Shown: positions 8,497 to 64,000 of the stretch, piece by piece
Numbering within the stretch: position 1 is the first letter of the stretch
Layout of the letters: every line of letters begins with the position of its first letter
From: Aphrocallistes beatrix
Lineage: Eukaryota > Porifera > Hexactinellida > Sceptrulophora > Aphrocallistidae
Assembly (NCBI GenBank): GCA_963281255.1
Contig: OY725503.1
Location: forward strand, 4,008,312-4,072,311
Direction: 5' to 3'
DNA length: 64,000 nt
The notes under the pieces: generated by a model
The model's input: only the letters and a program-made list of their open reading frames with translations
What the model was told of the DNA's origin: nothing
Databases searched by the model: none
Position numbers and translations under genes: made by a program

Positions 8497-8984
8497 CCTT
8501 ATGGATAATACGTGTACTTTGGCAGGCTTGGATAGCTAAATTGTACAAAATAAATAACAAAGATTATTGGAGTAATAGAGAGACATTTAAAATTAGAATT
8601 AATGTAACTACATATACCATTTTTGCATGACTGTTATAAAACCATATAGTACAATAGAACTTGCATAATCCGACACTTTATGCTGTTAAAAAATGTAGTT
8701 TCTAGGACATTTGGATTGCATTTAGGATATATATGATCTCTGTTTGAGTATATTCACGGCATTTAGTTATTCTACGTCACAAAAATAGCAATTAACTCAG
8801 ATAAAACATAAATCAATATGTATAAAACAAACAAGGTATACAGAAGAAAGTAAAATATAGGACCGAAAAGCAGCATACAAAATAGGGCCTAAATTGAATA
8901 AAATAATAGAGCTTTGTAAGAACGATGGCTCATCTAGTGAATTCCAAACACAGTTGTATCAAAAGAGTCTGAATCGATCTTATC
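8497..8984. other. Intergenic, nothing recognised
   Basis: 488 AT-rich bases between two minus-strand genes. No coding exon, RNA gene or repeat recognised. Confidence 0.5.
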
Positions 8985-10952
8985 TTATACTGGAGGGTTT
9001 CCCAGCAGTGGTTGTGCCAAAGTAGCTGCATTTTCATATAGATCTCTTTCGAATTTCCGGCCGGCTCTCTGATACTTGTAATGGCGATAGTGCACAATGA
9101 ATGAGTACAATAACATCACGACAGAAAGTCCGATTAGAGCGATAACCCATAGAACCCAAGTGTATTGTAAATTCTCTTCCTTACAATGATAATGGTGTAT
9201 TAAACAGAAGGAACAGCCCAATTTACTTCGACACAATCTGCCTAAGAGATAATATACTCCAGAAGAAAGGAATGTTCCTAAGCCTTGATATCCATAGTAC
9301 AGTCCAAAGAAAAATCCTTTCATCGAACTTTTGAAAAAGTTACTGCATTGGGAATATACGAATTGTTGTAATCCGACAATTGTGATGCATTCGAAAAGAC
9401 CGTAGAGAAAGTATTGTGGGATTTGTGCGTACTGCGTTAGTTCACTAATACGGTAAGCTCCTATGGGTGGACAGTGAATGGTATAACTTCCAAGGTTCAT
9501 TTGGAGAACTTCAACAGTTAATCCTGCAACTACACATGCGAAAGCTATGATTAGTCCCCAAAAATATCGCTTCATTGTCGTGTCGATATAAAATAAATAA
9601 TTGTGCAAAGAGTCGCGGGATTGGATGATCAAACTTCTGAGCACTCGTAAGCACTTCAATTTGCTCGGTATTAGTTTAATAAACCAAGGGAGCACATCTC
9701 TCTTGTAACCGAATGTGATATCGAAAAGGATCATTTCAATTAGAGGCAGGAAGAAAATAATGGTGAATGGGTCGAAGAATCCAACTGTATTTATGTAGGT
9801 GTGCTCATTGTGGTCTACTGGGCAATGGTTGGATACGTTGTGGTTGAGCGGCTGGTGCCCAATGAATGTTAAAATCCTCGCTTGCTGAGGGAACAAAACA
9901 TTCAATACTTGGAAGAGCCCGAAAACTGGCAGCAGTAGGAATAGATTCAGATTGAGCCAGATCATCGAGTCCACCATGCGGATCATCTTTACGTCGTAAG
10001 ATCCCCCATTTTCTCTGCAAGCTAAGTAGAGAAACGACTTGCGTTTACGATCCTTTGGTGCACGACATAGTCGACTGAGTGATTGGCAGATAATACCAAT
10101 ACTTTTTCTAAAGGAGTAGTCAGTGGGAATCAAGATGGAATCATGAAACCATTGCAAATAACGACCACACCGGAATAAGAAACATGCGAGAAAAGATATT
10201 ACGCAAACGACAATCGAATGGAAGAGAAACGTTTCAGCTTCAAACTTAACAAAATTAAGGTATGACGCTAAAGCACCGATGTTAAAAGCAAAATAGAAGA
10301 GAGGAAATAGAAGTATGCTAGAAATCTGAGACGTTTCGTACAGAAGATCGAGGCCATAGACTATGGACATCGGGAAGAAAATGCTAGACGAGATAAGGAA
10401 CAACGCGTAACTAATAACTAAGAAAATACGGATGGAAATTCTGGAACTATCGTTAAATTTCTCCATTTTCATATAACCTCCGTTATGATCGAATTCAAGA
10501 TAGAACAAAAGGGACCCTCCCACTAAAAATAAACTCGAAAACAGAACTATAACCAAACTGATCTCCACGAGACGAACCCTCCGCACAGAAAACATATCAG
10601 AGAATAGACCGACAAAAATTGAAAACAAGAATGGAACCTGTGTAAGTAGAGATAAGGAGTATTCATTGGTGAAGCAATGCATTGCTTGTGGCAGTAAATG
10701 GAAGAGGATGCTTCTCCCGTTGAAGTAGACAAGCCGTTGGAGGGAGACGATAGCGAGTAGAAGGTAGATCCCTCTTCTGTGTATTAGTGGGATCTTAGGC
10801 CCGAAGAAAATGCACAGACGAACATGATCAGTCTGTGTTCCCATTATTGATGTAAATCGATTTGTGATTAATGTTTTATGACTGTTCTCTATATTACTTG
10901 TAGAAGAGTATTTATGTGGATTGATTTGTCTATCATGATTCATATCACGCAA
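8985..10952 (-). CDS. SLC15/POT-like major facilitator transporter
   Basis: Single-exon 655-residue multi-pass membrane protein with about 12 hydrophobic segments, a long central loop (about 280-330) and hydrophilic ends. The segment with IPQYFLYGLFECITIVGLQQFVYSQ followed by SSMKGFFFGLYYGYQGLG resembles the TM10-TM11 region of proton-dependent oligopeptide transporters (IPQYxLxGxxE...FxYSQAPxxMKG). An SLC15A3/A4-like peptide/histidine transporter is the best guess. The ExxER motif of TM1 is not evident (YLLLAIVSLQRLVYF), so transport coupling may differ. The start may instead be the internal Met about 36 residues in. Confidence 0.65.
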   Translation of the reverse strand: MRDMNHDRQINPHKYSSTSNIENSHKTLITNRFTSIMGTQTDHVRLCIFFGPKIPLIHRRGIYLLLAIVSLQRLVYFNGRSILFHLLPQAMHCFTNEYSLSLLTQVPFLFSIFVGLFSDMFSVRRVRLVEISLVIVLFSSLFLVGGSLLFYLEFDHNGGYMKMEKFNDSSRISIRIFLVISYALFLISSSIFFPMSIVYGLDLLYETSQISSILLFPLFYFAFNIGALASYLNFVKFEAETFLFHSIVVCVISFLACFLFRCGRYLQWFHDSILIPTDYSFRKSIGIICQSLSRLCRAPKDRKRKSFLYLACRENGGSYDVKMIRMVDSMIWLNLNLFLLLPVFGLFQVLNVLFPQQARILTFIGHQPLNHNVSNHCPVDHNEHTYINTVGFFDPFTIIFFLPLIEMILFDITFGYKRDVLPWFIKLIPSKLKCLRVLRSLIIQSRDSLHNYLFYIDTTMKRYFWGLIIAFACVVAGLTVEVLQMNLGSYTIHCPPIGAYRISELTQYAQIPQYFLYGLFECITIVGLQQFVYSQCSNFFKSSMKGFFFGLYYGYQGLGTFLSSGVYYLLGRLCRSKLGCSFCLIHHYHCKEENLQYTWVLWVIALIGLSVVMLLYSFIVHYRHYKYQRAGRKFERDLYENAATLAQPLLGNPPV

Positions 10953-18734: not shown

Positions 18735-20009
18735 ATGGCGAGCAAACAAGTGGAAGATGAATCGAAAGTTAATCCTGTCGACTATCAGGAAAGCATCGAA
18801 CAAAATGGAATAAAATTAAAAGAAGAATTTGGAAAGTCTATTCAAGATATAATTGACAAATTAGTGGAAAAGAGGGAAGCGGTTTATGATAGAATCGATG
18901 AGATAGTCAGGCAAGGATGCGAAGACATGAAAAGAAAAGAGAACGAGGCAGAACAGATACACAGGGTTAGGAGGAGCATATCTAGCGAAATGGAAGGAAG
19001 GACTTCTATCTACAATAAACTAATGGAAAGTTTGAATGAAGAGATAAGCATAGTTGAGCTAAAAGTTCCTTCAATCAAAATTAAATGGAATTATCCGGTC
19101 GAGAAATTCATTCAAACTATTTCCAAACTTGCGGATGTAGAGAAATGCTACAAAAGTCCGTATAAGCTGAAAAACAATCCTATTTGGACAGGAATTACTC
19201 AGGGGAAGGGAGAATCAGAACTAGTCAAGCCCGGGGGTGTAGCGGTCGATCCAGAAACTAACGACATATACATAGGGGATCGAGGTTCTCCGAAGATCCT
19301 CGTTTTCGCCAAGAACGGCGAGTACAAACGATTGGTTCCGGTCCAGAATAAGCACAACATGATTAGCAGAATTTGTATTTTCAAAACCTTCATATTCTTT
19401 ATTTCTGAGGTGTTGCAAACGCCTCTATACAAGGTTCGAAAGGACAATGGAGTGAGAATAGTCAAGCAAGTGTACCCGGGGAAAATGAACAGGATAACCA
19501 TGGATAACAGCGGGAATGTGTTTATGTGCAATGATTCGGAACTAACCTTGTACAGCTGTAATGTCGAGCTCGGGAGCAGCAATCAAAAAAAGCTCACCTC
19601 TCCTTATTTTAAGCGGAATATACTGAGCGTGACGCGACTACTCGATATTAAGGCATTAGCTAAGGAGATTTACTGCCTTTTCAACAATACTGAAATGCCC
19701 ATCCACGTCTTCAGCAGTAAAGGTGAATTGATCCGACCAATTCAGTTCAGTCCCACGCCCCTAAGCATCAACACTAACCTCGCGAGTATGCACATCGACA
19801 AAAGTGGGAAGATTTTGATGAATTATGGAGTGAAAAATGAAGGGGGGATCATGATCTACCATCCTGAGGGAGAACTGTTGAAAGAAATAGGGAAGCAAGG
19901 GAAAGGGAAGGGAGAGGTGATTGACACGAGAGAAGTGGTGGTAGTAGAGGATACTAAAACTGTGATAATCTGTAATGCAAACCCACTCAATATGCTAGTA
20001 GCGTATTAG
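18735..20009 (+). CDS. Coiled-coil/NHL-repeat protein 1 (RING-less TRIM-NHL-like)
   Basis: 424-residue single-exon protein. Residues about 20-130 are Lys/Glu-rich and predicted coiled coil, followed by a beta-propeller region (about 150-424) with NHL-type blades such as KPGGVAVDPETNDIYIGDRG. No RING or B-box zinc finger precedes the coiled coil, unlike TRIM2/3/32/71. Two related genes are at 39670-40893 and 48258-49541, so this is a local family. NHL propellers commonly bind RNA or protein; the substrate here is unknown. Part of this gene (19314-19728) has been copied to 20908-21322. It converges on SelL gene A. Confidence 0.82.
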   Translation: MASKQVEDESKVNPVDYQESIEQNGIKLKEEFGKSIQDIIDKLVEKREAVYDRIDEIVRQGCEDMKRKENEAEQIHRVRRSISSEMEGRTSIYNKLMESLNEEISIVELKVPSIKIKWNYPVEKFIQTISKLADVEKCYKSPYKLKNNPIWTGITQGKGESELVKPGGVAVDPETNDIYIGDRGSPKILVFAKNGEYKRLVPVQNKHNMISRICIFKTFIFFISEVLQTPLYKVRKDNGVRIVKQVYPGKMNRITMDNSGNVFMCNDSELTLYSCNVELGSSNQKKLTSPYFKRNILSVTRLLDIKALAKEIYCLFNNTEMPIHVFSSKGELIRPIQFSPTPLSINTNLASMHIDKSGKILMNYGVKNEGGIMIYHPEGELLKEIGKQGKGKGEVIDTREVVVVEDTKTVIICNANPLNMLVAY

Positions 20010-20114
20010 TTGTATCTGGATTTTATACTTTAGATCTAGTCAGTAATAAGTATGTATAGTCAGGCGTTTAAAAATAAATCAAAGAAAATATTCATAGTTA
20101 AAAGTTTAACCAAA

Positions 20115-20160
20115 ATCAGTGACTAATACCCAGATGATTGGTTTATATTATTCACATCAT
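20115..20160 (-). promoter_or_regulatory. SECIS element of SelL gene A
   Basis: Read on the minus strand downstream of the stop at 20181. ATGA (20157-20160) is followed after exactly 12 nt by an AAAC apical motif, and a TGAT (20115-20118) closes the non-canonical quartet. The 9-bp helix between them pairs GTGAATAAT with ATTAGTCAC with a single mismatch. This is the eukaryotic SECIS plan (AUGA, apical AA, GA). It recruits SBP2/eEFSec to decode UGA as selenocysteine. Confidence 0.88.
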
Positions 20161-20180
20161 AACGGATTCAATTCGATTAA

Positions 20181-20777
20181 CTACATTCTGCTCTTGAATT
20201 TCGGAGGTTTTCCCAGTGCATCAGCTAATGCATCCATGCTTGGTCTATCATCAGATCTCTCACTGCGATAGAGATACAAAATGCTGCCTTCCCTGTCCAC
20301 TAGCAGGTCTCCGCCTAACTGAGACGACTCCTCCTCACTCTTAGGCATACGTATCGTGTGACCTTGAAATGCTTTCTTCGCATGCCACCAAAGAGACCAC
20401 GGATGCCAGCTCTTGTAAACTGATAGCTCGAGACCTAGCTGCCTATACACAGTGAGTGCGGGGTCGAGGTAGAATGGAAAGTTCGTGTTATTATGTTCGA
20501 CCCAGGTTCTAGCTGTTTCTGCCTCAAAGTTTGCTAGTAGCACAATGTTGCATCGGGATAGTATAGACGGAGAGTTTGATAATTCCTGTACGTGTAATCG
20601 TCAAGGAAGTCAGCGGGAGTGCTTGAGAAGTATAATAAACGTTCTATCCAATTTCCCTTCTGATGCGATGCGGGATAAGGAGACGGTGTCTCCATTTTGC
20701 ACATCTGTTACGTGTAGAGATGTAGGCAGAATATCACCAACGTTTAGAACAGAATCGTCTGCCCCTCGTTCTGCCAT
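20181..20777 (-). CDS. SELENOL: Selenoprotein L-like, copy A (UxxU, two in-frame TGA)
   Basis: 198 residues if TGA at 20610-20612 (residue 56) and 20601-20603 (residue 59) are read as selenocysteine, giving a UxxU motif (HSR-U-LP-U) followed by VQEL. The frame is open throughout apart from these two codons and ends in TAG. The fold is Prx-like/AhpC-TSA: a strand before the motif (TFIILL), then NFPFYLDP, and QLGGDLLVDREGSILYLYRS near the end. The UxxU (diselenide) motif defines the SelL family known from aquatic animals; its role is thiol-redox, with no established partner. I chose the Met at 20777 by alignment with gene D (MAE...NVGDILP); an upstream in-frame Met exists at 20864. Its native upstream DNA was replaced by an NHL fragment, so its promoter may be altered. 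Confidence 0.88.
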
Positions 20778-20907
20778 GAGAGGCGAGGAATTTAAAAGAA
20801 TAAATTTAAATCTACGCAACATAGAACTGACAGTAATATGCATGCACGAACCATGTAATTTCAACTCTTACACAGTATGTGGCAAATCGTACAGTTTCAA
20901 TTGTGAA

Positions 20908-21330
20908 AACGGCGAGTACAAACGATTGGTTCCGGTCCAGAATAAGCACAACATGATCAGCAGAATTTGTATTTTCAAAACCTTCATATTCTTTATTTCT
21001 GAGGTGTTGCAAACGCCTCTATACAAGGTTCGAAAGGACAATGGAGTGAGAATAGTCAAGCAAGTGTACCCGGGGAAAATGAACAGGATAACCATGGATA
21101 ACAGCGGGAATGTGTTTATGTGCAATGATTCAGAACTAACCTTGTACAGCTGTAATGTCGAGCTCGGGAGCAGCAATCAAAAAAAGCTCACCTCTCCTTA
21201 TTTTAAGCGGAATATACTGAGCGTGACGCGACTACTCGATATTAAGGCACTAGCTAAGGAGATTTACTGCCTTTTCAACAATACTGAAATGCCCATCCAC
21301 GTCTTCAGCAGTAAAGGTGAATGTATATAG
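20908..21330 (+). pseudogene. Truncated duplicate of NHL gene 1
   Basis: Nearly identical to 19314-19728 of NHL gene 1, about 139 codons from the middle of its propeller. It has no start codon of its own, and the reading frame stops right after the deletion junction at about 21322. An open frame continues upstream only through antisense SelL sequence, which is chance. Created by the tandem duplication; not a functional gene. Confidence 0.88.
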
Positions 21331-21385
21331 TCAGGCGTTTAAAAATAAATCAAAGAAAATATTCATAGTTAAAAGTTTAACCAAA

Positions 21386-21431
21386 ATCAGTGACTAATAC
21401 CCAGATGATTGGTTTATATTATTCACATCAT
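21386..21431 (-). promoter_or_regulatory. SECIS element of SelL gene B
   Basis: Same structure as the gene A element, duplicated with it: minus-strand ATGA at 21428-21431, 12 nt, AAAC apical motif, closing TGAT at 21386-21389. It lies about 20 bases after the TAG stop. Confidence 0.88.
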
Positions 21432-21451
21432 AACGGATTCAATTCGATTAA

Positions 21452-22048
21452 CTACATTCTGCTCTTGAATTTCGGAGGTTTTCCCAGTGCATCAGCTAAT
21501 GCATCCATGCTTGGTCTATCATCAGATCTCTCACTGCGATAGAGATACAAAATGCTGCCTTCCCTGTCCACTAGCAGGTCTCCGCCTAACTGAGACGACT
21601 CCTCCTCACTCTTAGGCATACGTATCGTGTGACCTTGAAATGCTTTCTTCGCATACCACCAAAGAGACCACGGATGCCAGCTCTTGTAAGCTGATAGCTC
21701 GAGACCTAGCTGCCTATACACAGTGAGTGCGGGGTCGAGGTAGAATGGAAAGTTCGTGTTATTATGTTCGACCCAGGTTCTAGCTGTTTCTGCCTCAAAG
21801 TTTGCTAGCAGCACAATGTTGCATCGGGATAGTATAGACGGAGAGTTTGATAATTCCTGTACGTGTAATTGTCAAGGAAGTCAGCGGGAGTGCCTGAGAA
21901 GTATGATAAACGTTCTATCCAATTTCCCTTCTGCTGCGATGCGGGATAAGGAGACGGTGTCTCCATTTTGCACATCTGTTACGTGTAGAGATGTAGGCAG
22001 AATATCACCAACGTTTAGAACAGAATCGTCTGCCCCTCGTTCTGCCAT
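21452..22048 (-). CDS. SELENOL: Selenoprotein L-like, copy B (UxxU, two in-frame TGA)
   Basis: 198 residues with TGA at 21881-21883 (residue 56) and 21872-21874 (residue 59), giving U-LP-U. It differs from copy A at about five residues (for example K52R and R60Q), so both frames have stayed intact since duplication. Same Prx-like layout, with LGGDLLVDREGSILYLYRSE near the C-terminus. Ends TAG. This copy retains the ancestral upstream sequence, unlike copy A. The start at 22048 is chosen by alignment with gene D; an in-frame Met also exists at 22129. Confidence 0.88.
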
Positions 22049-22182
22049 GAGAGGCGAGGAAAGAATAAATTTAAATCTACGCAACATAGAATTGACAGTA
22101 ATATGCATGCACGAGCCATGTAATTTCAACTCTTACACAGTATGTGGCAAATCGTACAGTTTCAAGCTACAAAAAGGTCCTG

Positions 22183-22336
22183 CAGGGTTTCATACAGTTC
22201 TAAGAATTAAAATAAACGAGAAATTGTATAGGGAGGTCTGGGATGCAATCTGGTATCAATATTATATTGAAAAATAATTTTCTTGGGAGGCGAGAGAAGG
22301 GGGTATTCCTGAGGGATAACACTGTATGAAACCTTG
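22183..22336. repeat. Short inverted-repeat element, possible MITE
   Basis: GCAGGGTTTCATACAGT at the left is mirrored by ACTGTATGAAACCTTGC at the right (16 of 17 complementary), about 150 bases apart. CAGGG ends would fit a hAT-type terminal repeat, but I find no target-site duplication. The interior has no ORF. It lies just upstream of SelL B. Confidence 0.45.
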
Positions 22337-22485
22337 CTCCAAATTAGAAAACTTGTATATATTTCAACTCAATATCAACACTAATGGAGTAACTAAGAAC
22401 AGACAATATGAATCCTAAATATGAACCTAGCTGGGACAGCACAAGGAAAATAGAAGCAATCAAATAATCACTTCAAATGGCCTAA

Positions 22486-23004
22486 CTATTGCTTTTCAAC
22501 ATTGTAGCCGTCTCTGAAGAAGACCATATAAGGCGTTACTTGGTCTTCTCGATAGTTCAGAAATCCAACACCGCCTGCAGGGTTGCTGCTCTCACCAATG
22601 TAGAACTGCCAATCTTTGAAGGAGGCCATCAGCTTAGTCACGAAGGGCTGAACTGCGGCCTTGAAAATGGGGAGACGATCAGGATTGGTCTTCTTGATAT
22701 GCTCACTTATTTCCGCAATATATCCTTTGATATATATTTTGAAGTCAGCTTTGGCGAATTTGGTTTCAATGAGCTTACATCCGATTATGAGGTCCATCCC
22801 CGTGGTGGAGCCGTCCGCTAACGCTTCAGCTCCGCCTTCAGCGACTTCAGTACTGGCATTGCCTCCGATCAAATTGTCCGAAATTCCAGACTTTTCTGTC
22901 AACGATTTCCCCTCGACTTCAAAAATGGCATCGTCAATCAGCTTCAGCGGGTAGGCGTCTGTGAACATCTCATCACCAGTAATGATGTCCTTGTAAATTA
23001 GCAT
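22486..23004 (-). CDS. TPT1: Translationally controlled tumor protein (TCTP)
   Basis: 172-residue single-exon protein, exactly the family length. It begins MLIYKDIITGDEMFTD and contains the TCTP signature near FKIYIKGYIAEI and the C-terminal FYIGESSNPAGGVGFLNYRE. It is an abundant cytosolic calcium/tubulin-binding protein linked to growth and translation. It sits inside the SelL cluster between the minus- and plus-strand pairs, with no functional link evident. Confidence 0.96.
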   Translation of the reverse strand: MLIYKDIITGDEMFTDAYPLKLIDDAIFEVEGKSLTEKSGISDNLIGGNASTEVAEGGAEALADGSTTGMDLIIGCKLIETKFAKADFKIYIKGYIAEISEHIKKTNPDRLPIFKAAVQPFVTKLMASFKDWQFYIGESSNPAGGVGFLNYREDQVTPYMVFFRDGYNVEKQ

Positions 23005-23168
23005 ACTTGATACCTAGGATACGTGACCTGAAAAGCTGAATCAAAATCAAAATCAAATCAGATGTCGGATCAAAAGGTGTAATTATATGGGATGGACCCA
23101 GTTACTTGAGATATGTCGAATAGCCCTTACGCGAGAATTGGAGTTTTAAAAAATGCATTTATTCTATG

Positions 23169-23321
23169 CATAGACGAACTATTTTGATTTTTTCATGGTT
23201 AGCAGGGGTGGCGAGATTTGTAATCATATATCAAACTAATGTGGCATTCCACCCCAAGTCAACATAACATTTAGGTCTGGGGTGGCACGCTACCCCTGCC
23301 ACCCCTGGAGTTACGCCTATG
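23169..23321. mobile_element. hAT-like MITE (153 bp)
   Basis: Imperfect terminal inverted repeats (CATAGACGAACT at left; the reverse complement of the right end is CATAGGCGTAACT) are flanked by 8-base direct repeats, ATTCTATG (23161-23168) and ATTCTAGG (23322-23329), 7 of 8 identical. Eight-base duplications are typical of hAT transposons. There is no coding capacity. It contains short GGGGTGGC/GCCACCCC internal inverted repeats. It lies in the TCTP / SelL C divergent region (23005-23633), where I see nothing else. Confidence 0.6.
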
Positions 23322-23633
23322 ATTCTAGGCATAAAACAGACGAAAACTTTGGTCTTGACTTCCCAGGACAACTTAATCACACGCCCCGGACTCTGATAAG
23401 CATACTAAGAGTAATCCTATTTAATTTGTCAAAAAATATTGCAAGATCATACAAAACTATAGGCCTATGTACTCCACCGCCTGAATGCAGGCAGTATTAT
23501 GTTTACTGCAGACACACACACTTACGTGCATATATAGGTAGCTCGCCTACAGCACTATTCAGTTAGTACGAATTTCACTATACTTATTTGTGCAATCCCT
23601 CTTCCTTTTTACTACTCCAGTCTGACAGTGCAA

Positions 23634-24158
23634 ATGGCTGCAGGAGGCGCTGGTCCTAAGGCCGGGCTCGTAAAGGCAGGAGACTCGCTCTCTCCCGCGC
23701 TACAAGTATCGAATCTTGACAACGAGGACAAAACCACGCTTACGCAAATTGCAGCAGCAAACGCGGACAAGAGCACCCTATTCATCTTCCTAAGGTTCTC
23801 TCAATGACCCTACTGTGGGCAGCATGCCCAGGAGCTGGCGAAATCGCAAGCGATTCTCGACAAGCTCCACATCGTAATCGTGAGCCATTACGATCAAGAA
23901 ACATCCAAACAGTGGTTGAAAGACAAGGACGTCAATTTCCCCATTTACCGCGACAAGGACCTGAAGACGTACGATGCTCTGGGATTTGATAGGGAACCGT
24001 CAGCTGAAGGGTTCGACATGGCACTGCTCGAGGGGACACCACCTCAGATGGGCGGAAATTTGATTGTAACCAAGGAAGGAAAAATCCTGTACATCCTCAG
24101 GAGCTCGACACCTGATGAAAGACCAACAGTTGAGGATTTACTAAAAGTTATTGGTTAG
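23634..24158 (+). CDS. SELENOL: Selenoprotein L-like, gene C (UxxC, one in-frame TGA)
   Basis: 174 residues with TGA at 23805-23807 read as selenocysteine 58, giving the mixed motif U-PY-C (C61 by TGT), followed by GQHAQEL. Downstream Prx-like motifs are NFPIYRDKDLKTYDALGF, TPPQMGGNLIVTKEGKIL and DERPTVEDLLKV, collinear with genes A, B and D, but the segment before QMGG is about 20 residues shorter. Ends TAG. A SECIS follows 60 bases later. A UxxC redox pair resembles thioredoxin-type CxxC sites with one Sec. It may be derived from or ancestral to the UxxU form. Convergent evidence (homology across the TGA plus SECIS) makes pseudogenisation unlikely. Confidence 0.9.
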
Positions 24159-24562
24159 GGCGAACGAAATAAGTAGGCACATCAGGGAGCAGATAAAACT
24201 AAATCGGGTGCACAACCATGATGGAAATAGTATAAACAATTTTATTATTTTCTGATCTTTCGTGTCATTCTATTTGTGTTACGTCTGTGACCTGATTAAA
24301 TATTTTTTTTCGTATTTTTGAGTTCGTTATAGGTTCAGTGAAAAGTTAAACACGGACACGTATCATGAATCAACTAAAATGCATCTATGTGGCTATGTGT
24401 AAGTTAAAAATTAACAATTAATAACCACGTGAGGATGTCTGATTAATATAGGCTTTTTATGGTATGCACAGGAATAAGATATAAGGAAGGTTAACAAAAT
24501 GAAGTACATTTCAGTAATAAATTTACTTATAATAACATCCCAAACTTGCTAGTATCAATTAA
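24159..24562. other. SelL C 3' region and SelL D upstream region
   Basis: 404 bases between two tandem SelL genes. It holds the gene C SECIS (24218-24256), an AT-rich tail with ATTAAA-type polyadenylation-like sequence near 24297, and the presumed gene D promoter. Nothing else recognised. Confidence 0.5.
24218..24256 (+). promoter_or_regulatory. SECIS element of SelL gene C
   Basis: ATGA (24218-24221), 12 nt, apical AAAC (24234-24237), closing TGAT (24253-24256). The intervening helix pairs GGAAATAGT with ATTATTTTC over 9 bp with two G-U wobbles. It is the same architecture and near-identical 3' strand as the gene D element. Confidence 0.92.
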
Positions 24563-25156
24563 ATGGCTGAGGCGGACCCAATTGGTCCCATAATCAGCTC
24601 TGTCAATGCTGGGGACATCCTTCCATCCTCACTCGCAGTGACAAGCGTAGAGAGCGGAGAGAATACCTCGCTAACACAGATACTCGCCTCGCAAGAGAGT
24701 TCGAAGAAAACGCTGTTTCTATTCCTGAGGCACCCCTTTTGACCCTTTTGAAAGGAACACGCCCAAGAGCTGGGCAAGACGCCGGCCATTATGGACCAGC
24801 TTGATGTCGTCGTCGTAGCTTATTATGACAAAAAAACAGCTCTAAACTGGATAAAAGACGCGAAAACACGTTTTCCGATGTTCCTTGATCAGAACCTCAA
24901 AGTGTATGATGCATTGGGCTACCATAAAACGTTCGTTAGGATGTTTGGCAGAAATAAGTTAGGTAAGGATATAAAAATAACTTTTCATCATCTCTTCTCG
25001 TCGTTGCCATATATAAAAGGCGGCCAGACGCCTCAAATGGGTGGAGATATGATTACGAACAAAGAAGGAAAGATCTTGTACATTCACCGGAGTGAAAGTC
25101 CCGATGACAGGCCGTCTCCTGAAGAGTTAGTGACGTTGCTTAAAACCTTGGACTAA
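24563..25156 (+). CDS. SELENOL: Selenoprotein L-like, gene D (UxxU, two in-frame TGA)
   Basis: 197 residues with TGA at 24740-24742 (residue 60) and 24749-24751 (residue 63), giving HPF-U-PF-U followed by KEHAQEL, which aligns with the U-PY-C GQHAQEL of gene C. The pre-motif strand is KTLFLFLR. Downstream it shares RFPMFLDQNLKVYDALGY, QTPQMGGDMITNKEGKIL and SPDDRPSPEEL with its paralogues. Ends TAA. This is a Prx-like thioredoxin-fold protein of the SelL family; UxxU can form a diselenide bond. Same strand as gene C, about 400 bases after it. The start at 24563 gives an N-terminus matching genes A and B. Confidence 0.9.
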
Positions 25157-25210
25157 CCTTAATGAACTTAGATAGCAGGCAGCTAATGCAAGTGAATAGA
25201 GTTGATAGAT

Positions 25211-25254
25211 ATGATGAAAATAATAGAAACATATTTTTGATATTATTTTCTGAT
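25211..25254 (+). promoter_or_regulatory. SECIS element of SelL gene D
   Basis: ATGA (25211-25214), 12 nt, apical AAAC (25227-25230), closing TGAT (25251-25254). The helix GAAAATAATA (25216-25225) pairs perfectly with TATTATTTTC (25241-25250). It begins 55 bases after the TAA stop. Textbook eukaryotic SECIS core. Confidence 0.93.
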
Positions 25255-25754
25255 CTTTTTGTGTAATTCTATTTATGTAGCATATGTTGACCTGATTAAA
25301 CGAGCTATATATTCAGGAGTATTCGTGAACTGAGATAGATGGGGAAAGTTAAAGGATGAAATGGATATATCTCATCCTACGTTTTCTTCACTATCAGTTG
25401 TATCTATAGTATATCGGACATAATGTTATATTTTTAGACATGGAAACCTCGGAACTGAACCATTAATATAGTAATTAACCAGTAGCAATTGATTTTGAGA
25501 TGTCGAGTGTCCTAACCGTTAATTTTGGTGTTGTGACGACACAAACTTTAGTGCTTAAGCTTTATCAAGGGCAAGTTTTCAGATAATGGGCGTTATTCTA
25601 CGATCAGCCTTATTGCACTTGGAATGTACTTGTGCTTATGTTGCTAGGTAGATCATCCTCAAATATGTATATTAATACACATACTGCAACCAACAGCCAG
25701 ACTTGGATATATTCGTTATTTAGTAAAATCAACAAAATCATTCTCTCAATTACT
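25255..25754. other. Convergent intergenic region, nothing recognised
   Basis: 500 bases between the ends of SelL D (plus) and TTI1 (minus). 3' UTR material; no ORF or repeat of note. Confidence 0.5.
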
Positions 25755-55486: not shown

Positions 55487-55762
55487 TTATAAGCTAGATA
55501 ACAGCTCTAAATCCTTCTGTCTTACTGTTATAATCGATATCACTTGAAACCTGATTGGCCTGACAATCGTTGAGTAGTACGAAATGTGCGGAGATGTTGC
55601 GGGGTTGTGAGCCAGTCCGGACCACGTGCAACTCTGATGGTAGTGAAGCCGGTGGTAATTCGCACACCACTCAGTTATAAACGAGGTTTCTCTCCCTTGA
55701 GCAAAGTGAAAGTGAGCATTTTCAGTTTGGAAGCAATAGAAATAGTGGGTGATTTGGAGCAT
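55487..55762 (-). pseudogene. Diverged copy of the Cys-rich segment, truncated by the satellite
   Basis: Shares TEWCA.xHxLHYxxxC with the ORF at 54866-55195, but its upstream half is replaced at about 55700 by the first satellite unit (homology ends at TTTCTCTCCCTTG). The open frame that crosses into the satellite is therefore chimeric. Likely a dead duplicate. Confidence 0.4.
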
Positions 55763-58700
55763 TTTGCATCCCTGTGGGGGGGTACAGTGCCATTTTGAGA
55801 AAAGAATGTGGCCAAAGGAGAGCGAAGCTAGGCATTTTCTGTAAGAAACGTTATAAGAGCAAAGTGAAAGTGAGCATTTTCAGTTTGGAAGCAATAGCCA
55901 TTTCGAGTGATTTGGAGCATTTTCAGTGCCCTGTGGGGGGGTACAGTGCCATTTTGAGAAGAGAATGTGGCCAAATGAGAGCGAAGCTAGGCATTTTCTG
56001 TAAGAAACGTTGTAAGAGCAAAGTGAAAGTGAGCATTTTCAGTTTGGAAGCAATAGCCATTTCGAGTGATTTGGAGCATTTTCAGTGCCCTGTGGGGGGG
56101 TACAGTGCCATTTTGAGAAGAGAATGTGGCCAAATGAGAGCGAAGCTAGGCATTTTCTGTAAGAAACGTTGTAAGAGCAAAGTGAAAGTGAGCATTTTCA
56201 GTTTGGAAGCAATAGCCATTTCGAGTGATTTGGAGCATTTTCAGTGCCCTGTGGGGGGGTACAGTGCCATTTTGAGAAGAGAATGTGGCCAAATGAGAGC
56301 GAAGCTAGGCATTTTCTGTAAGAAACGTTGTAAGAGCAAAGTGAAAGTGAGCATTTTCAGTTTGGAAGCAATAGCCATTTCGAGTGATTTGGAGCATTTT
56401 CAGTGCCCTGTGGGGGGGTACAGTGCCATTTTGAGAAGAGAATGTGGCCAAATGAGAGCGAAGCTAGGCATTTTCTGTAAGAAACGTTGTAAGAGCAAAG
56501 TGAAAGTGAGCATTTTCAGTTTGGAAGCAATAGCCATTTCGAGTGATTTGGAGCATTTTCAGTGCCCTGTGGGGGGGTACAGTGCCATTTTGAGAAGAGA
56601 ATGTGGCCAAATGAGAGCGAAGCTAGGCATTTTCTGTAAGAAACGTTGTAAGAGCAAAGTGAAAGTGAGCATTTTCAGTTTGGAAGCAATAGCCATTTCG
56701 AGTGATTTGGAGCATTTTCAGTGCCCTGTGGGGGGGTACAGTGCCATTTTGAGAAGAGAATGTGGCCAAATGAGAGCGAAGCTAGGCATTTTCTGTAAGA
56801 AACGTTGTAAGAGCAAAGTGAAAGTGAGCATTTTCAGTTTGGAAGCAATAGCCATTTCGAGTGATTTGGAGCATTTTCAGTGCCCTGTGGGGGGGTACAG
56901 TGCCATTTTGAGAAGAGAATGTGGCCAAATGAGAGCGAAGCTAGGCATTTTCTGTAAGAAACGTTGTAAGAGCAAAGTGAAAGTGAGCATTTTCAGTTTG
57001 GAAGCAATAGCCATTTCGAGTGATTTGGAGCATTTTCAGTGCCCTGTGGGGGGGTACAGTGCCATTTTGAGAAGAGAATGTGGCCAAATGAGAGCGAAGC
57101 TAGGCATTTTCTGTAAGAAACGTTGTAAGAGCAAAGTGAAAGTGAGCATTTTCAGTTTGGAAGCAATAGCCATTTCGAGTGATTTGGAGCATTTTCAGTG
57201 CCCTGTGGGGGGGTACAGTGCCATTTTGAGAAGAGAATGTGGCCAAATGAGAGCGAAGCTAGGCATTTTCTGTAAGAAACGTTGTAAGAGCAAAGTGAAA
57301 GTGAGCATTTTCAGTTTGGAAGCAATAGCCATTTCGAGTGATTTGGAGCATTTTCAGTGCCCTGTGGGGGGGTACAGTGCCATTTTGAGAAGAGAATGTG
57401 GCCAAATGAGAGCGAAGCTAGGCATTTTCTGTAAGAAACGTTGTAAGAGCAAAGTGAAAGTGAGCATTTTCAGTTTGGAAGCAATAGCCATTTCGAGTGA
57501 TTTGGAGCATTTTCAGTGCCCTGTGGGGGGGTACAGTGCCATTTTGAGAAGAGAATGTGGCCAAATGAGAGCGAAGCTAGGCATTTTCTGTAAGAAACGT
57601 TGTAAGAGCAAAGTGAAAGTGAGCATTTTCAGTTTGGAAGCAATAGCCATTTCGAGTGATTTGGAGCATTTTCAGTGCCCTGTGGGGGGGTACAGTGCCA
57701 TTTTGAGAAGAGAATGTGGCCAAATGAGAGCGAAGCTAGGCATTTTCTGTAAGAAACGTTGTAAGAGCAAAGTGAAAGTGAGCATTTTCAGTTTGGAAGC
57801 AATAGCCATTTCGAGTGATTTGGAGCATTTTCAGTGCCCTGTGGGGGGGTACAGTGCCATTTTGAGAAGAGAATGTGGCCAAATGAGAGCGAAGCTAGGC
57901 ATTTTCTGTAAGAAACGTTGTAAGAGCAAAGTGAAAGTGAGCATTTTCAGTTTGGAAGCAATAGCCATTTCGAGTGATTTGGAGCATTTTCAGTGCCCTG
58001 TGGGGGGGTACAGTGCCATTTTGAGAAGAGAATGTGGCCAAATGAGAGCGAAGCTAGGCATTTTCTGTAAGAAACGTTGTAAGAGCAAAGTGAAAGTGAG
58101 CATTTTCAGTTTGGAAGCAATAGCCATTTCGAGTGATTTGGAGCATTTTCAGTGCCCTGTGGGGGGGTACAGTGCCATTTTGAGAAGAGAATGTGGCCAA
58201 ATGAGAGCGAAGCTAGGCATTTTCTGTAAGAAACGTTGTAAGAGCAAAGTGAAAGTGAGCATTTTCAGTTTGGAAGCAATAGCCATTTCGAGTGATTTGG
58301 AGCATTTTCAGTGCCCTGTGGGGGGGTACAGTGCCATTTTGAGAAGAGAATGTGGCCAAATGAGAGCGAAGCTAGGCATTTTCTGTAAGAAACGTTGTAA
58401 GAGCAAAGTGAAAGTGAGCATTTTCAGTTTGGAAGCAATAGCCATTTCGAGTGATTTGGAGCATTTTCAGTGCCCTGTGGGGGGGTACAGTGCCATTTTG
58501 AGAAGAGAATGTGGCCAAATGAGAGCGAAGCTAGGCATTTTCTGTAAGAAACGTTGTAAGAGCAAAGTGAAAGTGAGCATTTTCAGTTTGGAAGCAATAG
58601 CCATTTCGAGTGATTTGGAGCATTTTCAGTGCCCTGTGGGGGGGTACAGTGCCATTTTGAGAAGAGAATGTGGCCAAATGAGAGCGAAGCTAGGCATTTT

Positions 58701-61700
58701 CTGTAAGAAACGTTGTAAGAGCAAAGTGAAAGTGAGCATTTTCAGTTTGGAAGCAATAGCCATTTCGAGTGATTTGGAGCATTTTCAGTGCCCTGTGGGG
58801 GGGTACAGTGCCATTTTGAGAAGAGAATGTGGCCAAATGAGAGCGAAGCTAGGCATTTTCTGTAAGAAACGTTGTAAGAGCAAAGTGAAAGTGAGCATTT
58901 TCAGTTTGGAAGCAATAGCCATTTCGAGTGATTTGGAGCATTTTCAGTGCCCTGTGGGGGGGTACAGTGCCATTTTGAGAAGAGAATGTGGCCAAATGAG
59001 AGCGAAGCTAGGCATTTTCTGTAAGAAACGTTGTAAGAGCAAAGTGAAAGTGAGCATTTTCAGTTTGGAAGCAATAGCCATTTCGAGTGATTTGGAGCAT
59101 TTTCAGTGCCCTGTGGGGGGGTACAGTGCCATTTTGAGAAGAGAATGTGGCCAAATGAGAGCGAAGCTAGGCATTTTCTGTAAGAAACGTTGTAAGAGCA
59201 AAGTGAAAGTGAGCATTTTCAGTTTGGAAGCAATAGCCATTTCGAGTGATTTGGAGCATTTTCAGTGCCCTGTGGGGGGGTACAGTGCCATTTTGAGAAG
59301 AGAATGTGGCCAAATGAGAGCGAAGCTAGGCATTTTCTGTAAGAAACGTTGTAAGAGCAAAGTGAAAGTGAGCATTTTCAGTTTGGAAGCAATAGCCATT
59401 TCGAGTGATTTGGAGCATTTTCAGTGCCCTGTGGGGGGGTACAGTGCCATTTTGAGAAGAGAATGTGGCCAAATGAGAGCGAAGCTAGGCATTTTCTGTA
59501 AGAAACGTTGTAAGAGCAAAGTGAAAGTGAGCATTTTCAGTTTGGAAGCAATAGCCATTTCGAGTGATTTGGAGCATTTTCAGTGCCCTGTGGGGGGGTA
59601 CAGTGCCATTTTGAGAAGAGAATGTGGCCAAATGAGAGCGAAGCTAGGCATTTTCTGTAAGAAACGTTGTAAGAGCAAAGTGAAAGTGAGCATTTTCAGT
59701 TTGGAAGCAATAGCCATTTCGAGTGATTTGGAGCATTTTCAGTGCCCTGTGGGGGGGTACAGTGCCATTTTGAGAAGAGAATGTGGCCAAATGAGAGCGA
59801 AGCTAGGCATTTTCTGTAAGAAACGTTGTAAGAGCAAAGTGAAAGTGAGCATTTTCAGTTTGGAAGCAATAGCCATTTCGAGTGATTTGGAGCATTTTCA
59901 GTGCCCTGTGGGGGGGTACAGTGCCATTTTGAGAAGAGAATGTGGCCAAATGAGAGCGAAGCTAGGCATTTTCTGTAAGAAACGTTGTAAGAGCAAAGTG
60001 AAAGTGAGCATTTTCAGTTTGGAAGCAATAGCCATTTCGAGTGATTTGGAGCATTTTCAGTGCCCTGTGGGGGGGTACAGTGCCATTTTGAGAAGAGAAT
60101 GTGGCCAAATGAGAGCGAAGCTAGGCATTTTCTGTAAGAAACGTTGTAAGAGCAAAGTGAAAGTGAGCATTTTCAGTTTGGAAGCAATAGCCATTTCGAG
60201 TGATTTGGAGCATTTTCAGTGCCCTGTGGGGGGGTACAGTGCCATTTTGAGAAGAGAATGTGGCCAAATGAGAGCGAAGCTAGGCATTTTCTGTAAGAAA
60301 CGTTGTAAGAGCAAAGTGAAAGTGAGCATTTTCAGTTTGGAAGCAATAGCCATTTCGAGTGATTTGGAGCATTTTCAGTGCCCTGTGGGGGGGTACAGTG
60401 CCATTTTGAGAAGAGAATGTGGCCAAATGAGAGCGAAGCTAGGCATTTTCTGTAAGAAACGTTGTAAGAGCAAAGTGAAAGTGAGCATTTTCAGTTTGGA
60501 AGCAATAGCCATTTCGAGTGATTTGGAGCATTTTCAGTGCCCTGTGGGGGGGTACAGTGCCATTTTGAGAAGAGAATGTGGCCAAATGAGAGCGAAGCTA
60601 GGCATTTTCTGTAAGAAACGTTGTAAGAGCAAAGTGAAAGTGAGCATTTTCAGTTTGGAAGCAATAGCCATTTCGAGTGATTTGGAGCATTTTCAGTGCC
60701 CTGTGGGGGGGTACAGTGCCATTTTGAGAAGAGAATGTGGCCAAATGAGAGCGAAGCTAGGCATTTTCTGTAAGAAACGTTGTAAGAGCAAAGTGAAAGT
60801 GAGCATTTTCAGTTTGGAAGCAATAGCCATTTCGAGTGATTTGGAGCATTTTCAGTGCCCTGTGGGGGGGTACAGTGCCATTTTGAGAAGAGAATGTGGC
60901 CAAATGAGAGCGAAGCTAGGCATTTTCTGTAAGAAACGTTGTAAGAGCAAAGTGAAAGTGAGCATTTTCAGTTTGGAAGCAATAGCCATTTCGAGTGATT
61001 TGGAGCATTTTCAGTGCCCTGTGGGGGGGTACAGTGCCATTTTGAGAAGAGAATGTGGCCAAATGAGAGCGAAGCTAGGCATTTTCTGTAAGAAACGTTG
61101 TAAGAGCAAAGTGAAAGTGAGCATTTTCAGTTTGGAAGCAATAGCCATTTCGAGTGATTTGGAGCATTTTCAGTGCCCTGTGGGGGGGTACAGTGCCATT
61201 TTGAGAAGAGAATGTGGCCAAATGAGAGCGAAGCTAGGCATTTTCTGTAAGAAACGTTGTAAGAGCAAAGTGAAAGTGAGCATTTTCAGTTTGGAAGCAA
61301 TAGCCATTTCGAGTGATTTGGAGCATTTTCAGTGCCCTGTGGGGGGGTACAGTGCCATTTTGAGAAGAGAATGTGGCCAAATGAGAGCGAAGCTAGGCAT
61401 TTTCTGTAAGAAACGTTGTAAGAGCAAAGTGAAAGTGAGCATTTTCAGTTTGGAAGCAATAGCCATTTCGAGTGATTTGGAGCATTTTCAGTGCCCTGTG
61501 GGGGGGTACAGTGCCATTTTGAGAAGAGAATGTGGCCAAATGAGAGCGAAGCTAGGCATTTTCTGTAAGAAACGTTGTAAGAGCAAAGTGAAAGTGAGCA
61601 TTTTCAGTTTGGAAGCAATAGCCATTTCGAGTGATTTGGAGCATTTTCAGTGCCCTGTGGGGGGGTACAGTGCCATTTTGAGAAGAGAATGTGGCCAAAT

Positions 61701-64000
61701 GAGAGCGAAGCTAGGCATTTTCTGTAAGAAACGTTGTAAGAGCAAAGTGAAAGTGAGCATTTTCAGTTTGGAAGCAATAGCCATTTCGAGTGATTTGGAG
61801 CATTTTCAGTGCCCTGTGGGGGGGTACAGTGCCATTTTGAGAAGAGAATGTGGCCAAATGAGAGCGAAGCTAGGCATTTTCTGTAAGAAACGTTGTAAGA
61901 GCAAAGTGAAAGTGAGCATTTTCAGTTTGGAAGCAATAGCCATTTCGAGTGATTTGGAGCATTTTCAGTGCCCTGTGGGGGGGTACAGTGCCATTTTGAG
62001 AAGAGAATGTGGCCAAATGAGAGCGAAGCTAGGCATTTTCTGTAAGAAACGTTGTAAGAGCAAAGTGAAAGTGAGCATTTTCAGTTTGGAAGCAATAGCC
62101 ATTTCGAGTGATTTGGAGCATTTTCAGTGCCCTGTGGGGGGGTACAGTGCCATTTTGAGAAGAGAATGTGGCCAAATGAGAGCGAAGCTAGGCATTTTCT
62201 GTAAGAAACGTTGTAAGAGCAAAGTGAAAGTGAGCATTTTCAGTTTGGAAGCAATAGCCATTTCGAGTGATTTGGAGCATTTTCAGTGCCCTGTGGGGGG
62301 GTACAGTGCCATTTTGAGAAGAGAATGTGGCCAAATGAGAGCGAAGCTAGGCATTTTCTGTAAGAAACGTTGTAAGAGCAAAGTGAAAGTGAGCATTTTC
62401 AGTTTGGAAGCAATAGCCATTTCGAGTGATTTGGAGCATTTTCAGTGCCCTGTGGGGGGGTACAGTGCCATTTTGAGAAGAGAATGTGGCCAAATGAGAG
62501 CGAAGCTAGGCATTTTCTGTAAGAAACGTTGTAAGAGCAAAGTGAAAGTGAGCATTTTCAGTTTGGAAGCAATAGCCATTTCGAGTGATTTGGAGCATTT
62601 TCAGTGCCCTGTGGGGGGGTACAGTGCCATTTTGAGAAGAGAATGTGGCCAAATGAGAGCGAAGCTAGGCATTTTCTGTAAGAAACGTTGTAAGAGCAAA
62701 GTGAAAGTGAGCATTTTCAGTTTGGAAGCAATAGCCATTTCGAGTGATTTGGAGCATTTTCAGTGCCCTGTGGGGGGGTACAGTGCCATTTTGAGAAGAG
62801 AATGTGGCCAAATGAGAGCGAAGCTAGGCATTTTCTGTAAGAAACGTTGTAAGAGCAAAGTGAAAGTGAGCATTTTCAGTTTGGAAGCAATAGCCATTTC
62901 GAGTGATTTGGAGCATTTTCAGTGCCCTGTGGGGGGGTACAGTGCCATTTTGAGAAGAGAATGTGGCCAAATGAGAGCGAAGCTAGGCATTTTCTGTAAG
63001 AAACGTTGTAAGAGCAAAGTGAAAGTGAGCATTTTCAGTTTGGAAGCAATAGCCATTTCGAGTGATTTGGAGCATTTTCAGTGCCCTGTGGGGGGGTACA
63101 GTGCCATTTTGAGAAGAGAATGTGGCCAAATGAGAGCGAAGCTAGGCATTTTCTGTAAGAAACGTTGTAAGAGCAAAGTGAAAGTGAGCATTTTCAGTTT
63201 GGAAGCAATAGCCATTTCGAGTGATTTGGAGCATTTTCAGTGCCCTGTGGGGGGGTACAGTGCCATTTTGAGAAGAGAATGTGGCCAAATGAGAGCGAAG
63301 CTAGGCATTTTCTGTAAGAAACGTTGTAAGAGCAAAGTGAAAGTGAGCATTTTCAGTTTGGAAGCAATAGCCATTTCGAGTGATTTGGAGCATTTTCAGT
63401 GCCCTGTGGGGGGGTACAGTGCCATTTTGAGAAGAGAATGTGGCCAAATGAGAGCGAAGCTAGGCATTTTCTGTAAGAAACGTTGTAAGAGCAAAGTGAA
63501 AGTGAGCATTTTCAGTTTGGAAGCAATAGCCATTTCGAGTGATTTGGAGCATTTTCAGTGCCCTGTGGGGGGGTACAGTGCCATTTTGAGAAGAGAATGT
63601 GGCCAAATGAGAGCGAAGCTAGGCATTTTCTGTAAGAAACGTTGTAAGAGCAAAGTGAAAGTGAGCATTTTCAGTTTGGAAGCAATAGCCATTTCGAGTG
63701 ATTTGGAGCATTTTCAGTGCCCTGTGGGGGGGTACAGTGCCATTTTGAGAAGAGAATGTGGCCAAATGAGAGCGAAGCTAGGCATTTTCTGTAAGAAACG
63801 TTGTAAGAGCAAAGTGAAAGTGAGCATTTTCAGTTTGGAAGCAATAGCCATTTCGAGTGATTTGGAGCATTTTCAGTGCCCTGTGGGGGGGTACAGTGCC
63901 ATTTTGAGAAGAGAATGTGGCCAAATGAGAGCGAAGCTAGGCATTTTCTGTAAGAAACGTTGTAAGAGCAAAGTGAAAGTGAGCATTTTCAGTTTGGAAG
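55700..64000. repeat. 159-bp satellite array, about 52 copies, to window edge
   Basis: Head-to-tail units of exactly 159 bases (the same word TGTAAGAGCA recurs at 56011, 56170 and 56329, and so on). The first unit is diverged and one base shorter. The second is almost consensus, and from the third on units look identical by eye. The unit contains GGGGGGG and repeated AGCATTTTCAG words. Such homogeneity with a decayed edge is typical of satellite arrays homogenised by unequal exchange. The array runs off the window, so its true size is unknown. Confidence 0.97.
55975..64000 (+). other. Stop-free reading frame through the satellite (53-residue repeat)
   Basis: Because 159 = 3 x 53, each frame repeats identically. 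One plus-strand frame has no stop: a 53-residue unit including SIFSLEAIAISSDLEHFQ and IFCKKRC, with four Cys and net positive charge. From the ATG at 55975 it stays open to the window edge, about 2,675 codons. The other five frames have stops. The frame contains one ATG per unit. It may be chance, since a random 53-codon frame is open at a non-negligible rate and six were available. No promoter, signal peptide or diverged in-frame units give independent support. Confidence 0.3.

Follow-up and report, generated by a model that had tools for sequence, protein, structure and literature searches.

We analysed a window of 64,000 nucleotides from the hexactinellid sponge Aphrocallistes beatrix (G000:C17:4008312-4072311; source assembly of 100.5 Mb in 28 contigs), in which four predicted selenoprotein genes lie within 5 kb. 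Gene 1 (20181..20777, minus strand) comprises 198 codons and carries TGA at 20610-20612 and 20601-20603; when TGA is read as selenocysteine (Sec, U), the two codons form the motif U-L-P-U. Gene 2 (21452..22048, minus strand) is a near-identical tandem copy of gene 1, with the same motif encoded by TGA at 21881-21883 and 21872-21874. Gene 3 (23634..24158, plus strand) encodes U-P-Y-C, with TGA at 23805-23807 and TGT (Cys) at the second site, and gene 4 (24563..25156, plus strand) encodes U-P-F-U, with TGA at 24740-24742 and 24749-24751. The frames end in TAG (genes 1, 2 and 3) or TAA (gene 4), and their products would be 198 (genes 1 and 2), 174 (gene 3) and 197 (gene 4) residues long. The initial annotation described the genes as collinear, which they are not: genes 1 and 2 are on the minus strand, genes 3 and 4 on the plus strand, and a TCTP gene (22486-23004, minus strand) sits between the two pairs.

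TAA and TAG are absent in frame from all four genes; the seven in-frame TGA codons all fall at one conserved site. The residues leading into the first U are HSRU, HSRU, FSQU and HPFU in genes 1 to 4, and H[VA]QEL follows the motif in all four. The initial annotation had placed four frames at these coordinates, broken by TGA alone and at the same place, stopping at TAG or TAA and sharing a QEL motif after the Sec site; on each of these points it was correct. Openness as such says little, because TGA-tolerant frames are cheap in this window: 29 of the 47 stop-to-stop frames of at least 170 codons contain TGA. The evidence therefore lies in conservation and RNA structure. What exceeds chance is a conserved protein with identical TGA sites and a selenocysteine insertion sequence (SECIS) 3' of every gene. 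We also considered a genome-wide reassignment of TGA and rejected it, since 2 of 17 selected open reading frames (ORFs) terminate in TGA, which is thus also a normal stop in this genome.

Two further members of the family lie outside the window cluster, on contigs C12 and C20. Gene 4 and the C12 paralogue have both retained the two TGA codons at a synonymous divergence (dS) of 0.79, with a nonsynonymous divergence (dN) of 0.16 and an overall dN/dS of 0.20 by a simple counting method. The ratio is 0.17 over the 56 codons before the TGAs and 0.23 over the 134 codons after them. In this one informative pair, the coding sequences thus show purifying selection on the frame downstream of the TGAs. 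It is very improbable, then, that the genes are pseudogenes in decay or frames open by chance, with TGA acting as a plain stop and a truncated peptide of 55-59 residues as the sole product. The abundance of TGA-containing frames in the window fits such a reading, as does a dN/dS of 0.74 between genes 1 and 2, a value derived from very few changes; the constraint past the TGAs, the lack of TAA and TAG in the four frames and the SECIS elements with compensatory changes at all six genes speak against it. Chance open frames were rejected on conservation, selection and SECIS covariation.

The SECIS elements lie just downstream of the coding sequences, as the initial annotation had proposed for all four genes. 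They are at 20104..20169 (gene 1, minus strand, 22.5 bits with the Rfam model SECIS_1), 21375..21440 (gene 2, minus strand, identical in sequence to that of gene 1, 22.5 bits), 24209..24266 (gene 3, plus strand, 25.4 bits) and 25202..25265 (gene 4, plus strand, 23.4 bits). Folding and covariation support each of them. A search of both strands of 20000-25600 with the Rfam library in E-value mode returned eight matches; four were SECIS_1, one per gene, each 3' of the gene and on its coding strand. The remaining four came from different models, snoR4a among them, and none of the eight reached the gathering score of its model. Elsewhere in the genome, SECIS_1 matched once each at the C12 (29.8 bits) and C20 (33.5 bits) paralogues and at the SPS2 gene (25.9 bits). 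The gathering score of the model is 35 bits; across the whole window, Rfam reported no match at the gathering threshold and one of the four elements at E<=10. All seven elements carry an ATGA quartet and AAA at the apical loop. Measured from the stop codon, the quartet begins 21, 21, 60 and 55 nt downstream in genes 1 to 4; it lies 413-471 nt downstream of the Sec codons.

The elements also covary. Among the seven SECIS elements of this genome, six of them distinct, 93.3% of helix cells are paired, and two-sided changes occur in 9 of 10 helix pairs. No shuffle out of 500 reached any of the five covariation measures, and shifting the helix by 1-3 columns reduced the paired cells to 40-75%. Over 128 kb of strand sequence, a custom SECIS pattern matched six times; its four best matches are the elements of the four genes, and 20 first-order Markov simulations gave a mean of 0.7 matches per window. 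This pattern was written after the elements were known and is thus supportive only; at loci L018, L019 and L020 it recovered none of three elements, although Rfam SECIS_1 matches there.

As judged by homology, the genome encodes the Sec machinery. A search for it had been set as a check beforehand, and found tRNA-Sec (75.9 bits, anticodon TCA, with four weaker matches below the cut-off), SepSecS (445.7 bits, above the cut-off), eEFSec (above the cut-off; PDB match 5izk, E 6e-187), SBP2 (PDB match 7zjw, E 5e-36), SPS2 and PSTK-like genes. SPS2 was recovered in four pieces, with an in-frame TGA within KLKGUGCKV, which we take to be the known Sec site of this protein.

The PSTK-like frame is present in many copies. 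TIGR03575 matched 22 pieces, at loci L029-L036, L053 and L054 on contigs C1, C3, C7, C8, C9, C12, C14 and C16. L029 aligns with seven other loci over 1.5-2.9 kb, flanks included, at about 90-98% DNA identity, and also with a further one on C8; the gene behaves as if borne by a dispersed repeat. On contig C1, about 7 kb separates eEFSec from one of the PSTK-like copies (L052:344-2086 and 8874-9842), and by eye a helix-turn-helix, transposase-like frame stands between them.

To which family do the four genes belong? Pfam places the window proteins in AhpC-TSA_2 / AhpC-TSA, with the PF13911 domain that is also common to SelU. For all six genes, NF040769 (SelL_rel_redox) is the NCBIfam model with the best fit, at 72.7-104.3 bits against a curated cut-off of 120 (gene 1, 101; gene 2, 104.3; gene 3, 72.7; gene 4, 92.5), and a census of the genome with this model gives at least six loci, namely the four in the window, C12:4520343 and C20:1163653. 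Genes 1, 2 and 4 and both paralogues have UxxU. As gene 3 has UxxC, we file it as SelL-like and not as strict SelL. The AlphaFold model of gene 4 has a thioredoxin/peroxiredoxin fold with a predicted local distance difference test score (pLDDT) of 79.7 (residues 1-11 and 124-155 below 50), and, judging by its secondary structure, helix 61-71 begins at the Sec sites, residues 60 and 63. In a Foldseek search with this model, the best PDB match was human prostamide/prostaglandin F (PGF) synthase, with a query template modelling (TM) score of 0.62.

SelL proteins are reported to have two Sec two residues apart with a single SECIS (PMC3316567), to be peroxiredoxin-like (PMC2398784), to form a diselenide, and to occur in fish, invertebrates and marine bacteria (PMC2397514). 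Window genes 1, 2 and 4 resemble them in the spacing of the two Sec, the single SECIS and the peroxiredoxin-like sequence. What sets them apart is number: this genome has six or more paralogues, of which four fall within 5 kb and one is UxxC. The initial annotation assigned all four genes to SelL. This stands in so far as the closest named family is SelL-related, through a model that scores below its cut-off; it does not extend to gene 3, and the label is provisional.

At the C20 gene (L019:1588-2115), whose motif is UHPU, the 5' end is missing and perhaps lies in an upstream exon. The stop of this gene is probably a TGA immediately ahead of the SECIS, in which case TGA would serve as Sec and as stop in one frame; the next in-frame TAG lies inside the SECIS, which is why a TGA stop is proposed.

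A sponge-only selenoprotein family termed AphC-like is known from Amphimedon, Oscarella and Suberites (PMC3473315), and the genes described here might belong to it, their tandem layout being that family's own. PMC3473315 reports three AphC-like selenoprotein genes in Amphimedon, two of them in tandem, with a thioredoxin-like fold and SECIS elements, and the window proteins do match Pfam AhpC-TSA models. According to the same paper, the SECIS core of all three Amphimedon genes is GUGA_AA, whereas it is AUGA here. Moreover, SelL_rel_redox is the best NCBIfam model, below its cut-off, in six of six genes. The typical peroxidatic motif of peroxiredoxin / AhpC proteins is TxxC/TxxU, and this pattern is absent before the first U in genes 1 to 4. 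We therefore regard membership of the AphC-like family as unlikely, and favour the SelL or SelL-like group.

Much less probable is that the genes are paralogues of SelU (PRXL2 / FAM213), a UxxC family within PF13911. The shared Pfam domain and related fold, a best structural match that is itself a PRXL2 protein, and the UxxC of gene 3 would suit such an origin, as SelU has its Sec at the first CxxC position. The genome, however, holds two separate SelU-type genes (L044:1354-1884 and L045:1432-2091), both with PF13911, with in-frame TGA in RRPGUGLC and RRPGUYLC. These fit RRPGUxLCR-EA, presumably the SelU active-site motif, which is absent from genes 1 to 4, where the motif context is distinct. 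The two SelU genes score 17-18 bits with the SelL_rel_redox model and match PGF synthase in the PDB at 57.3 and 48.3 bits, against 19.7 for gene 4, 16.8 for gene 3 and no match for gene 2 in a search with genes 2, 3 and 4. They form a separate clade, split from the seven SelL-type rows of the tree at 100/100. SelU membership of genes 1 to 4 was rejected on these four grounds of motif, model scores, PGF synthase matches and tree. Rfam found no SECIS_1 match on L044 and L045 at E<=2; a SECIS-like stretch, unscored, was seen by eye in L044.

Genes 1 and 2 are 97% identical. A block of about 846 nt that holds gene 1 and its SECIS (20055..20900) recurs at 21326-22165 with 98.2% identity, and a partial copy of an NHL-type gene (20908..21322; original 19314-19728, 415 nt, 99.3% identical) lies at the junction, both identified by blastn; the NHL-type assignment comes from ORFs and weak NHL matches. 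These identities mark genes 1 and 2 as the outcome of a recent tandem duplication, which probably carried the NHL-type piece along. Direct tandem blocks of 98.2% identity with a partial gene copy at the junction might also be produced by an assembly that falsely doubles a single locus from its two haplotypes. We consider this improbable here, because the outer flanks differ between the copies and the second copy lacks 326 nt, including the NHL 3' end, as in a real duplication followed by a deletion.

The recent duplication accounts for genes 1 and 2 only. In an 8-row tree, from which P0007, the C20 gene and two bacterial-like fragments were left out, the gene 1/2 and gene 3/4 lineages split at 100/99. 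Of the six genes of this genome, genes 1/2 are the nearest to the public proteins P0003 and P0004 (52-53%), and gene 4 is the nearest to P0006 (46%); all three public entries are protein fragments. The two lineages thus have separate nearest relatives, so the cluster is probably in part old, and the paralogues other than genes 1 and 2 look older. The local expansion claimed in the initial annotation is accordingly limited to genes 1 and 2, with two members on other contigs. Support was weak in trees of 12 and 10 rows; in the former, the two bacterial-like fragments grouped with genes 1/2 at 58/80. Of P0001-P0009, the entries P0001, P0002 and P0005 were excluded from the trees and from alignment A3, as they are truncated copies from this genome itself. 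P0007 (source jgi) reads WLPW at the motif position, as would be expected if TGA had been translated as Trp. A genome contig scan with P0009 gave 73 pattern matches and no relatives by tblastn. Since five of the six genes are UxxU, parsimony suggests that the Cys of gene 3 replaced a Sec.

How would these genes be decoded, and what might their products do? From established eukaryotic Sec biology, SBP2 would bind the SECIS and recruit eEFSec with Sec-tRNA. Through this recruitment, a single element in the 3' untranslated region may be enough for both UGA codons, which are 9 nt apart. In the UxxU members the two Sec are predicted to sit where the first helix begins, following the first core strand. 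By analogy with SelL they would be joined in a diselenide, which would take part in cycles of thiol/selenol exchange or peroxide reduction; the corresponding pair of gene 3 would be a selenenylsulfide instead. Historically, genes 1 and 2 would derive from a recent tandem duplication and the other paralogues from older events.

Taken together, it is very likely that all four are protein-coding genes for selenoproteins in the SelL / SelL-like (peroxiredoxin-like, thioredoxin-fold) group, with the mechanism and history proposed above. Several points weigh against this interpretation. Every SECIS_1 score, at the four window elements, C12, C20 and SPS2, falls below the Rfam gathering score, and on the gene 4 element snoR4a scores 25.7 bits against 23.4 for SECIS_1. 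The four AT-rich window elements have weak free-energy z-scores (-0.16 to -1.84). The dN/dS estimates come from one informative pair and have no confidence interval, while the comparison of genes 1 and 2, with 7 coding differences, is uninformative. None of the six NF040769 scores reaches the curated cut-off, and in 12 of the 14 control genomes the model likewise gives matches that fall short of it. Gene 3 has no second Sec, its TGA being followed by TGT at the second site. The SelL label derives from profile model, motif and predicted fold. Finally, the SPS2 pieces are each below the SelD curated cut-off, and the PSTK-like genes are below the PSTK cut-off. The observation made in the initial annotation is nevertheless real at the level of sequence and well supported, and the interpretation placed on it is supported in part.

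The surrounding window contains an animal-like gene set, including a lysyl oxidase with SRCR domains, protein kinase C, a signal peptide peptidase and TTI1. Between 3753 and 49541, two protein kinase C-like genes, the lysyl oxidase/SRCR gene, an RBBP4-like gene and TTI1 are among several long genes that each read as one uninterrupted frame, possibly through intron loss or retrocopying; SPS2 of the same genome, unlike them, is split in pieces. A 159-bp satellite of about 52 copies at 99% identity occupies 55699-64000 and reaches the end of contig C17. Its unit length is a multiple of 3, and the satellite consequently yields very long spurious open frames.

Selenoprotein gene clusters are already known. 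Deiodinase clusters of adjoining genes on both strands occur in Trichoplax, with six genes, and in amphioxus, according to PMC3473315; they resemble the present cluster in arrangement and differ in belonging to another selenoprotein family. Table 1 of PMC3473315 covers six invertebrates, five with a single SelL gene and one that lacks it. Compared with those six species, a set of six members with four close together is unusual. No title or abstract opening in the literature surveyed announces a SelL gene cluster, in a survey that covered few full texts and no supplements. The kind of gene and the kind of cluster are thus familiar; new is the unusually large set, of at least six copies with four near one another.

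The locus also bears on annotation. The initial annotation anticipated that standard pipelines would split or drop such genes, and for gene 4 and the C12 and C20 paralogues the public predicted proteins are indeed truncated, beginning about 14-22 residues past the second Sec site. They provide a clear example of selenoprotein genes cut short by automatic annotation.

Diselenide bonds are rare in natural proteins, and to our knowledge the function of SelL is still open. We tentatively suggest, as a possibility that falls short of an even chance, that the SelL genes of this sponge, six or more with 11 UGA-encoded Sec, make up a diversified set in which neighbours that differ at one catalytic atom, UxxU with a diselenide against UxxC with a selenenylsulfide, act as redox partners of different potentials. 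If so, one locus would offer a natural series for asking what purpose the second Sec, and hence the diselenide, serves. Paralogues within one organism would further allow the cost and benefit of the second Sec to be compared, together with the decoding of two UGA codons by one SECIS.

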